DNA from: Kiloniella spongiae
GTDB taxonomy: Bacteria > Pseudomonadota > Alphaproteobacteria > Kiloniellales > Kiloniellaceae
DNA: 64,000 nt
Reading direction: 5' to 3'
Assembly: GCF_001026905.1 (NCBI RefSeq)
Contig: NZ_LAQL01000008.1
Coordinates: 124,001 to 188,000 of the forward strand
Shown: positions 16,793 to 19,996 of the stretch, one piece after another
Position numbering within the stretch: position 1 is the first letter of the stretch
Layout of the letters: every line of letters begins with the position of its first letter
Position numbers and translations under genes: made by a program
The notes under the pieces: model-generated
Databases searched by the model: none
What the model was told of the DNA's origin: nothing
What the model saw: only the letters and a program-made list of their open reading frames with translations

Positions 16793-18028
16793 TTATTGAA
16801 CGACTTCAGTCTCAGGTCCAAGATCAATTTCCTGCTCGGGAACAATCACCTCATCAACAACTGTTTCTTCCGTTGCCAAAACCTGGTTGTTAGTTTGCCC
16901 AGGCAAGTTCAATCCCTGTTGAACTTTAGGTCTGTTTAAAATCTGTAGCTCCCAAATGCTGCGCTCATTAAGCACCAACGCCAAATCCTTTTGCGCCAAC
17001 GCCAATGACAACTGTCGCTCATCCCCTGCAAAATAAACATCCAGATTTACTTGTGAGCGATTGATTGATCGCGTTTTGACTTTATTGATCGCGGGAACAC
17101 CTTGTAGTCGATTATTTACAAGCACCCAGTCCTGCAAGCCTGATATTGGAACCTCCACCTGTATCCAGCGCTCGACACCAAACTGTAACAGATTAGCCTG
17201 TTTCCAATCATGCTGAAGAGAATTATCGAGCGACCTTGCGGCTCGGCGTAACATTTTTTGCGTTGTTTCGCCCTCTGCTTTTGTCACATTCAACTGATAG
17301 CGACGACCTTCGCCAAAACGCCCGACCCGAACAGCAGACAGATTCGCAGCGGCTCCGTCATTGGTAATTTCTGCAACAGACAGGAAGACATCACTGCTAC
17401 CGTACTTCCCTGCCAGTTTCCACAAACCTTCATTACCCGCCAAGGCTCCCTTGGCATCCACCAAAGCTAGATCATCCAGATCACCTAACGGCATTGTCAA
17501 CGGAACAAGGCCATTACTGGCCCCGACACCACCCCATGCTGTTCGCCATTGATTGCGATCTTCCCATAACAAAGAAGAATCCGCTCTTTTTTCAATGGGA
17601 ATAATCAATACGGGCTTGCTGACTGTTTCAGCAATTGCTGCACCCGAATTACGAAGAAGTCCCCGAGTCTGCGATTCTTTAAACCGTACAGTCATATTTG
17701 CGATATACCGAACAGAAGATGACCTTTCTGCGGATAAAGATATATCCAGTACATAATTCAGCGCATCTTTTGAATTCAATTTCGGCACTTTTGCATGATC
17801 ATGCTCAGGCACAAGCTTACGTATCAGAGCTAGGAAAGCCTTTTCATAACCTTGACTTAACGCAGCTTTTTTCGCTTCAATCACAGTATCTGCTGTTGCA
17901 TCAACGCTGATACCATGAACAGTATAAACTTCGTTAACGGCTAAAGCAGTCGAATGCCAAAGCCCTGTAGAGAGCGCAAAAAATGTCACTAGAAATGCTG
18001 TCTTATAGAAAAAGCGGCGAAACCGCAT
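16793..18028 (-). CDS. DUF2066 domain exported protein
   Basis: 411 residues. A signal peptide (MRFRRFFYKTAFLVTFFALS) is followed by VYTVHGISVDATADTVIEAK, the start of DUF2066, and by KALSQGYEKAF-like repeats typical of that family. The C-terminal half predicts alpha/beta and ends in an acidic low-complexity tail (EETVVDEVIVPEQEIDLG). Probably periplasmic; function unknown. First gene of the group that continues with perM and hda. Divergent from purM. Confidence 0.8.
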   Translation of the reverse strand: MRFRRFFYKTAFLVTFFALSTGLWHSTALAVNEVYTVHGISVDATADTVIEAKKAALSQGYEKAFLALIRKLVPEHDHAKVPKLNSKDALNYVLDISLSAERSSSVRYIANMTVRFKESQTRGLLRNSGAAIAETVSKPVLIIPIEKRADSSLLWEDRNQWRTAWGGVGASNGLVPLTMPLGDLDDLALVDAKGALAGNEGLWKLAGKYGSSDVFLSVAEITNDGAAANLSAVRVGRFGEGRRYQLNVTKAEGETTQKMLRRAARSLDNSLQHDWKQANLLQFGVERWIQVEVPISGLQDWVLVNNRLQGVPAINKVKTRSINRSQVNLDVYFAGDERQLSLALAQKDLALVLNERSIWELQILNRPKVQQGLNLPGQTNNQVLATEETVVDEVIVPEQEIDLGPETEVVQ

Positions 18029-18070
18029 TGCAAACCATCCCGGATTAAGTATCTTCCCAAATTACAGAGC

Positions 18071-18246
18071 CTAATACCGAATGTATTAGGTAATATCTGG
18101 ACCTGATAATAACCTCGAACTATGACTATTCTATGAGGCTGTCGCCTTATCAGAGTTAGCCAAAACGGCTCGGTGCCATTAACCGGCTAGAAATGATCCG
18201 AGATTATTATCAGGTTCAGACACTTGAGTACATTAATACTCGAAGT
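18071..18246 (+). promoter_or_regulatory. Long structured leader upstream of purM (candidate cis-regulatory RNA)
   Basis: Three nested or serial stems are visible. Hairpin A: CTAATAC (18071-18077) with GTATTAG (18083-18089). Element B: a continuous 17-base-pair stem joining 18096-18112 to 18204-18220 (one G-U pair) that encloses 91 bases with further possible stems, CCTC 18113-18116 with GAGG 18135-18138, and CTCGG 18169-18173 with CCGAG 18198-18202. Hairpin C: GAGTA/TACTC at 18226-18241, extended by ACTT/AAGT to 18246. The ribosome site GGAGGA follows at 18251-18256. The shape is that of a multibranched aptamer before an expression platform. It matches no riboswitch class I can recall for purine, ZTP, PRPP or THF. 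Confidence 0.6.
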
Positions 18247-18290
18247 TACAGGAGGATACCATAAGTACCATCCCTAATAATCCTAATTCC

Positions 18291-19361
18291 TTGAGCTACA
18301 AGGATGCCGGAGTTGATATCGACGCAGGAAATGAACTGGTTGAAGCCATCAAACCCCTTGCAAAATCAACAACCCGTTCTGGTTCTATGGCTGGTTTAGG
18401 TGGTTTTGGCGCTTTCTTTGATCCCAAGGCCGCTGGTTTTACTGATCCTCTACTGATCGCCTGTAATGACGGTGTTGGCACAAAACTAAAAGTCGCCATC
18501 GAAGCAAACAAGCATGATACCGTGGGAATCGACTTGGTTGCCATGTGCGTAAACGACCTTGTTGTTCAGGGCGGAGAACCTCTCTTTTTCCTCGACTACT
18601 ATGCAACGGGTAAACTGAGTGTTGAAGCAGGACGCGATATCATTGCAGGTATTGCCGAAGGTTGTGTGCTTTCGAACTGCGCATTAATCGGTGGTGAAAC
18701 GGCTGAAATGCCGGGTATGTACAGTGACAATGATTACGATCTTGCCGGTTTCTCTGTTGGCGCAGTCGAGCGTGGACAAGCCTTAACAGGTGATTTGGTC
18801 AAAGACGGCGATGTTGTACTTGGTCTCACATCAAGTGGCCCACATTCTAATGGTTACTCTCTCATTCGTAAAATTGTTGAGATTTCCGGTGTGAAATACA
18901 GTGATCCCGCTCCTTTCCAGGATGGTGTAAGTCTCGGCGAAGCGCTACTGACACCAACACGTATTTACGTAAAAAGCTGCCTTGAAGCTATTCGTGCCTT
19001 TGGCCCTCATGGGGAAGGCGTTAGGGCCTTTGCTCATATAACAGGTGGCGGTTTTGTCGAAAATCTCCCTCGTGTTTTACCAGAAGGTTTAGGCGTGACA
19101 ATCGACGGTATTTCCTGGCCTGTACCACGTGTCTTTAGCTGGTTGGCCAAAACCGGCGGTATTGATGAACACGAAATGATGCGCACATTCAACTGTGGTA
19201 TTGGCATGGCCGTTGTGGTTGCTGCCGACAAGGTTGAAGATGTTACTGGTATTCTTCAGGCTCAAGGTGAAACGGTTGTCTCTCTTGGCACAGTAGAAAC
19301 CCGCAAAGAAGGCGAAAAAGCCGTTCAAATCGAAAGGCTCGCAGAAACGTGGCCCGCTTAA
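18291..19361 (+). CDS. purM: Phosphoribosylformylglycinamidine cyclo-ligase (AIR synthetase)
   Basis: A 356-residue PurM, step five of IMP synthesis, converting FGAM to AIR with [28 protein letters not shown] and [11 protein letters not shown] are the conserved N-terminal and ATP-binding motifs. The TTG at 18291 is the first standard start but has no ribosome site. GGAGGA at 18251-18256 instead points to an ATA codon at 18261, four bases later, giving an N-terminus (I/M)[16 protein letters not shown] that reads as a natural PurM start. The gene overlaps purN and lies behind the structured leader. Confidence 0.96.
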
Positions 19362-19996
19362 AAGTTGGCGTTCTGATCTCTGGCAGGGGAAGTAATCTAC
19401 AGGCTCTTTTAGATGCCGCAGCAGATCCAGCTTTCCCTGCAGAAGTCGTATTGGTCGTCTCTAACGTTCCAAACGTTACAGGGCTGGCTCGTGCTCAAAA
19501 AGCCGGCGTTGCAACAGCGACCGTAAATCATCGCGAATATAAAAATCGCCTTGACTTTGATCATGCTGTCACGGAAACCCTTGAAAATTCAGGCGTCGAG
19601 TTTGTCTGTTTAGCTGGTTTTATGCGTTTAGTTACAAAAGAATTTGTTGCACATTGGCACAACAGAATGATCAACATTCACCCTGCTCTACTCCCTCTGT
19701 TTCCTGGCTTGGACACACATCAACGTGCTTTGGATGAAGGCTGCAAGCTTCACGGCTGTACTGTTCATTTTGTGCGCCATGAAATGGATAGTGGCCCTAT
19801 TGTTGGTCAAGCCGCGGTGCCCGTTTTACCAGATGACACGGAAAACAGCCTCGCCATCCGCGTTCTCGGTGCAGAACACAGACTCTATCCCGAATGTTTG
19901 AAGCTCATCGCCGAGCAAAAGATCACAATTTCGGGCAACAGACTCATACATAGACACACATCTCAGATAACAGAAGATATGATCTGTAATCCTTGA
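19349..19996 (+). CDS. purN: Phosphoribosylglycinamide formyltransferase (GART)
   Basis: A 215-residue folate-dependent GAR transformylase, step three of IMP synthesis. [13 protein letters not shown] binds the phosphate end of [16 protein letters not shown] holds the catalytic Asn/His, and [12 protein letters not shown] the catalytic Asp. It begins at GTG 19349, inside the last 13 bases of purM, so the pair is translationally coupled. A terminator hairpin follows. Confidence 0.96.

Follow-up and report, generated by a model that had tools for sequence, protein, structure and literature searches.

The purM locus of Kiloniella spongiae raises two questions, namely from which codon this purine gene is translated and what is done by the long, folded leader in front of it. 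Both were addressed in a window of 64,000 nucleotides, the whole stretch of DNA analysed here (contig NZ_LAQL01000008.1, positions 124,001 to 188,000 of the forward strand), and all positions below count from its first base. The locus comprises an Hda-like protein (below curated cut-offs), an AI-2E family transporter, a divergent DUF2066 gene (16793–18028, − strand; PF09839, E 1.6e-17), purM and purN (19349–19996, + strand; TIGR00639 PurN, E 3.7e-70), the last overlapping the end of purM. The original prediction had concentrated on the leader and described a 17-base-pair stem enclosing 91 bases, a hairpin on each side and a ribosome site directly after, all of which are present. It overlooked an AUA start codon, which turned out to be a wider and better-supported feature than the leader itself.

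The ribosome site of purM, AGGAGG (18250–18255, + strand), is not followed by ATG, GTG or TTG at normal spacing. Five bases after it, in the PurM frame, stands AUA (18261–18263, + strand), the proposed start codon. From this AUA to the stop, purM covers 18261–19361 (+ strand) and matches TIGR00878 over residues 11–347 (E 3.8e-130, 433.9 bits, cut-off 236.35). Translation of 18234–18320 placed the nearest upstream in-frame stop, TAA, at 18234–18236 (+ strand), and the only start-like codons between this stop and the PurM core are AUA 18261, AUC 18270 and TTG 18291. The ORF tool places the start at TTG 18291, 35 bases past AGGAGG; a ribosome site at start spacing is present for the AUA and absent for the TTG. 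Among the 53 ORFs of the window, purM alone has an AUH codon (AUA, AUU or AUC) with a ribosome site before its first canonical codon and canonical codons without one. The AUA is not forced in Kiloniella, because TTG 18291 would still yield a complete PurM core. Taken together with the comparisons below, AUA as the start codon of purM is well supported by sequence.

A canonical start, at TTG 18291 in Kiloniella and at other codons in relatives, would mean that the conserved GGAGGA-nn-CC-AUH block is kept for some other purpose, for instance as a binding site or as part of a coding extension on the upstream side. We consider this very unlikely, even though the TTG gives the full PurM core and several relatives (e.g. 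L010, L013, L021, L030 and L031) carry an in-frame ATG, lacking a ribosome site, six codons upstream of the AUA, such that the block could be coding in those strains. The TTG has no ribosome site and was not kept outside Kiloniella, and the surrounding taxa argue against a canonical start in three further ways: the absence of canonical codons from some leaders, codon usage at the start and the frame of the block.

Within the order, a purM match was found in 59 of 61 genomes, two of which lacked the N-terminus, leaving 57 leaders. In 42 of these, a ribosome site preceded an AUH codon but no canonical codon; the remaining 15 were canonical. Almost all the AUH starts were AUA (40 of 42, with one AUU and one AUC). 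In ten of the 57 leaders an in-frame stop lay within 25 codons, with ATG, GTG and TTG all absent from the interval. In the 38 AUH genes that were fully read, AUA made up 30/38 start codons versus 14/682 internal isoleucine codons (Fisher, p = 4e-35, with related genomes counted as independent). When the DNA pattern of the initiation module was searched in the genome collection, 36 contigs were retrieved; 25 were purM of Kiloniella, Pelagibius, Denitrobaculum, a Nisaea MAG and other relatives, and the other 11, from other phyla, held no PurM start there.

The analysis was extended to the class using leaders anchored on the PurM protein, which replaced a class-wide short-pattern scan (2 mismatches, 57/190 genomes). 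That scan was discarded as unreliable: the reversed pattern also matched many genomes. PurM was matched in 141 of 190 genomes; 137 leaders were taken and 135 classified (two had no alignable N-terminus), three of which belong to the order. In twenty leaders an AUH codon followed a ribosome site and canonical codons were absent over 25 codons; a further 22 had an AUH codon with a site while their canonical codons had none, several of these 22 being doubtful. Six leaders had neither a canonical codon nor an AUH passing the site pattern. Some of these AUH assignments are likely to be wrong (e.g. L106, L158, L163, L185, L201 and L306). A non-canonical start was strictly forced, an in-frame stop lying nearby and no canonical start being possible in between, in 18/135 leaders and 15/104 families. 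The weak start codon of purM is evidently dispensable, since the remaining 87 of the 135 leaders look canonical.

The AUH-only leaders of the class (n = 20) used AUU (8), AUC (7) and AUA (5). AUA dominance holds in the order, and since internal isoleucine is usually encoded by AUC, the evidence from codon usage applies chiefly to the order. Across 159 distinct leaders (a set rich in Kiloniellales), GAGG plus AUH at start spacing fell in the PurM frame 66 times versus 6 and 1 times in the other frames, and GAGG plus ATG occurred in the PurM frame in 7/159. In 54 non-redundant leaders chosen for AUH, the block was approximately GAGGA-nn-CC-AUH-ASCAGC, with AUA in 25, AUC in 18 and AUU in 11. Such freedom of the third base (A, U or C) is in keeping with selection for weakness rather than for one particular codon. 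The block includes a CC directly 5′ of the AUH start and, often, ASCAGC 3′ of it. Median SD strength was −6.4 in 19 AUH-only leaders versus −3.7 in the 87 canonical leaders, a contrast that is partly circular because the AUH group was chosen for having a site. A PurM tree (quick method, 83 proteins, hand-set states) required eight changes between AUH and canonical starts, of which the starred branches force only one, and it gives no order of AUH gain versus loss.

As a positive control, infC was examined in the order, where 28 AUA and one AUC were recovered from 29 loci (L259–L287). In 30 class genomes chosen for an AUH purM (L316–L345), the apparent infC start was AUA in 20, AUC in seven (one of these calls, L327, is unsure), AUU in one and ATG in two, and there was no clear link between the purM and infC codons in these 30 genomes. 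The two infC ATG cases came from small AT-rich genomes (G065 and G198) with an AUU purM. As a negative control, 20 leaders were drawn from other classes of the phylum; in none did an AUH codon with a site of ≤ −5.5 kcal/mol outrank the canonical start, and one of the 20 (L240) was without a clear start. A search of the mostly open-access literature returned no report of an AUA or other non-canonical start for purM, nor of a purM leader or riboswitch. One study names purM as a predicted sRNA target (PMC5955585).

The second question concerns the leader. Positions 18096–18112 (TCTGGACCTGATAATAA) pair with 18204–18220 (TTATTATCAGGTTCAGA) in 17 pairs, one of them G-U. The predicted fold of the leader RNA (18060–18270) had an energy of −69.8 kcal/mol versus −42.82 ± 4.24 in shuffles (z = −6.36), and 0/200 dinucleotide shuffles matched its stability. 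All elements of the minimum-energy fold lie on the + strand. A 5′ hairpin (18069–18091; 18069–18077 with 18083–18091) is followed by the 17-pair stem, which is prolonged inwards by a 4-pair extension (18114–18117 with 18199–18202) around the segment 18118–18198. A 3′ hairpin (18222–18246) stands just 5′ of the ribosome site. In its own genome the leader is single-copy, and a mobile or repeated element was accordingly rejected.

Nine Kiloniella leaders were aligned for stem and hairpin conservation, and the stem was kept in all nine. Mean pairwise identity was 0.90 for the 5′ arm, 0.96 for the 3′ arm and 0.99 for the 3′ hairpin, in which 24/25 columns were fixed and 81/81 cells paired. The enclosed segment was the least conserved part of the leader (identity 0.51; 11/82 alignment columns fixed) and also varied in length. 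For comparison, the identity of purM fourfold-degenerate sites between the window and seven genus mates was 0.35–0.64, the two K. laminariae genomes giving 0.35 and 0.36. By this measure, strong selection acts on the stem arms but not on the loop. The 3′ arm, the 3′ hairpin and the purM ribosome site were conserved as one block.

The proposed covariation check, carried out on these nine leaders, found no compensatory change in the 17-pair stem; the two K. laminariae leaders lose three of the 17 pairs, with changes on both sides turning one of the three into C-C. Changes on both sides were found in three pairs of the 5′ hairpin and one of the inner extension. These four pairs were not above chance (shuffle mean 2.9; 112/500 shuffles), while the cells with both-side changes numbered 10 versus 4.7 in shuffles (0/500), a count made on related sequences. 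Over all helices, 95.4% of 349 cells were paired versus 24–39% with slid partners.

The leader was not found outside Kiloniella. Six distinct Kiloniella leaders had fold z scores of −3.8 to −7.2, whereas 35 other leaders carrying the upstream promoter-like pattern described below scored −1.8 to 1.7, no better than shuffles. On these 35 scores, a structured leader as the shared trait was rejected. One genome from another genus of the same family (L025) has a 185-base purM leader with z = −4.6, an unrelated sequence and an AUU start; its layout, a long stem and a hairpin before the ribosome site, resembles that of Kiloniella. The Kiloniella leader is, in these comparisons, structured, conserved and genus-specific. 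Of the two possibilities that the original prediction had offered, a lineage-specific leader was borne out, while a new riboswitch class was not, given an element restricted to one genus, its divergent interior and 17 pairs without compensatory change.

A riboswitch or other cis-regulatory RNA, in which a ligand or protein partner alters ribosome access to purM, would account for the high stability of the leader, for arms that far exceed the fourfold sites of purM in identity and for the both-side changes in the 5′ hairpin and inner extension. We nevertheless regard it as unlikely, and rejected it as the main explanation, since the enclosed segment is conserved neither in sequence nor in length. 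A sensor in the loop is improbable because the arms are strongly selected while this segment varies. The restriction to one genus and the chance-level number of doubly changed pairs also count against it. So does the Rfam search, in which no match to a known class was found at the gathering threshold in the whole window; at E ≤ 10 the only match around the leader was snR40 (12.5 bits, E 5.6), a chance match. Finally, in the predicted fold the stem makes no pairing with AGGAGG, so that the stem is not predicted to sequester the ribosome site. Of the earlier proposal that the leader controls this site, the structured and conserved leader stands, while control of the site by the stem is not supported. 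AGGAGG was predicted to pair mostly with early purM codons (18250–18275), with a mean unpaired probability of 0.18–0.28 in the nine Kiloniella leaders, and in 32 leaders outside those nine this probability was mixed (0.10 to 0.83). Pairing with early codons may leave room for some access control.

A pair of promoter-like boxes, TTGCAA (−35-like, 18028–18033, + strand) and TATCTT (−10-like, 18050–18055, + strand), stands upstream of the leader, and many purM leaders of the class, AUH leaders included, have the pattern TTGCAA-16-TATnTT upstream. This candidate promoter, P1, would set the transcript start near 18062, which would place the whole leader in the message. As this recurrent pair stands upstream, the leader is probably transcribed with purM. 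Against this, a strict sigma-70 scan of 17950–18350 detected no promoter. A weakly conserved TTATAC/TTAATAC box lies at a near-fixed distance of about −28 to −22 from the AUH start (18234–18242 in the window) and may be a second −10 box.

The ATG of the divergent DUF2066 gene touches the −35-like TTGCAA (18026–18055), an arrangement that recurs in relatives. The start of this gene is 34 bases away from where the purM transcript is expected to begin, and the 17 pairs form in 146/153 cells on either strand alike, which would suit a stem that acts as DNA or in the DUF2066 transcript rather than in the purM leader RNA. This reading appears quite unlikely to us. All helices together pair in 333/349 cells on the + strand versus 323 on the − strand, a slight lean towards purM, and the conservation of the 3′ arm in one block with the 3′ hairpin and the purM ribosome site likewise connects the stem to purM.

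We therefore favour, with a probability of roughly 75%, a reading in which purM is translated from AUA 18261, this weak, IF3-rejected codon brakes or tunes PurM, and the Kiloniella leader is a structural 5′ UTR. The AUA, presumably read by the initiator tRNA, would be a weak codon of the kind that IF3 rejects in characterised cases, and the strong AGGAGG would partly offset this weakness. The weak start would then form a translational brake on PurM, whose production would respond to IF3 activity and to the conditions of initiation. By analogy with those cases, we infer that purM expression is limited at the initiation step, with possible tuning by IF3 or growth state. In Kiloniella, about 150 extra leader bases would have been inserted between the old promoter-like region and the initiation module. 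In our reading, the stem would give this 5′ UTR a structural role (insulation, message stability or ribosome standby) with no ligand sensor. Of this scheme, the sequence itself shows where the AUA lies, how far it is conserved, its frame bias and the conservation of the stem; AUA use in the cell, IF3 sensitivity, the physiological reason and the task of the stem are proposals.

A broader version of this scheme is offered tentatively, and we think it possible rather than probable. In many Alphaproteobacteria, purM, like infC, would keep an AUH start so that purine synthesis tracks the initiation machinery; canonical starts would mark lineages with rewired purine control, and the Kiloniella leader would be a lineage-specific addition to the switch. 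The signal could be the ratio of IF3 to 30S subunits or the supply of formylated initiator tRNA. Formylation of the initiator tRNA draws on the same formyl-tetrahydrofolate as PurN, which is encoded beside purM, and a purine link through this cofactor is speculation on our part.

Conserved non-canonical start codons have so far been described for few genes, and the AUH start of purM is a predicted addition to the genes whose start codons are discriminated by IF3. Found across many families in an enzyme gene of purine synthesis, it would bring a metabolic target under start-codon control and account for PurM starts that gene callers misplace; a connection between the fidelity of translation and the supply of purines would become open to direct testing. 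A second, smaller question is posed by the Kiloniella leader, whose stem is strongly selected while the loop it encloses evolves freely.

Compared with known systems, the Kiloniella leader shares with the guanine, PRPP and ZTP riboswitches its place in front of a purine gene. It differs from them in being confined to one genus and in lacking a covariance-model match to the known riboswitch families of Rfam 15; instead of the conserved sensor core of a riboswitch, with an unconserved interior, it is the stems that are conserved. The start codon has closer parallels. IF3 represses initiation at non-canonical codons, and one study describes GTC in Streptomyces sigR and ATT/ATC in infC, the E. coli infC being autoregulated by IF3 (PMC5472188). 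As predicted for purM, infC begins at a weak AUH codon that is conserved and has a ribosome site, and AUA is its codon in the same order; infC is controlled by its own product, whereas the proposed IF3 control of purM would act in trans on a purine enzyme. Streptomyces sigR resembles purM in having a non-canonical start outside the translation machinery, one that was missed by annotation and is IF3-repressed according to the same study (PMC5472188). It differs in its codon (GTC), its restriction to one actinobacterial genus, its role in sigma factor control and its experimental demonstration. In Staphylococcus aureus, AUA and AUU starts are reported to give approximately 10% of AUG expression in poor medium, with ccpN reaching up to 30% in rich medium (PMC13009471). 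Both ccpN (AUA) and cvfC1 (AUU) have, like purM, a strong ribosome site and are kept among relatives (PMC13009471), but they are other genes in another phylum and were found by profiling, while the purM start is predicted from sequence in many families. E. coli pcnB (AUU) is, to go by a title cited in PMC13009471, likewise a chromosomal gene limited by a weak start codon. What purM has in common with these genes is, by sequence, a non-canonical start, in frame and after a ribosome site, that is conserved across species where canonical codons are absent or site-less, in 42/57 leaders of the order and 42/135 of the class, some of them doubtful.
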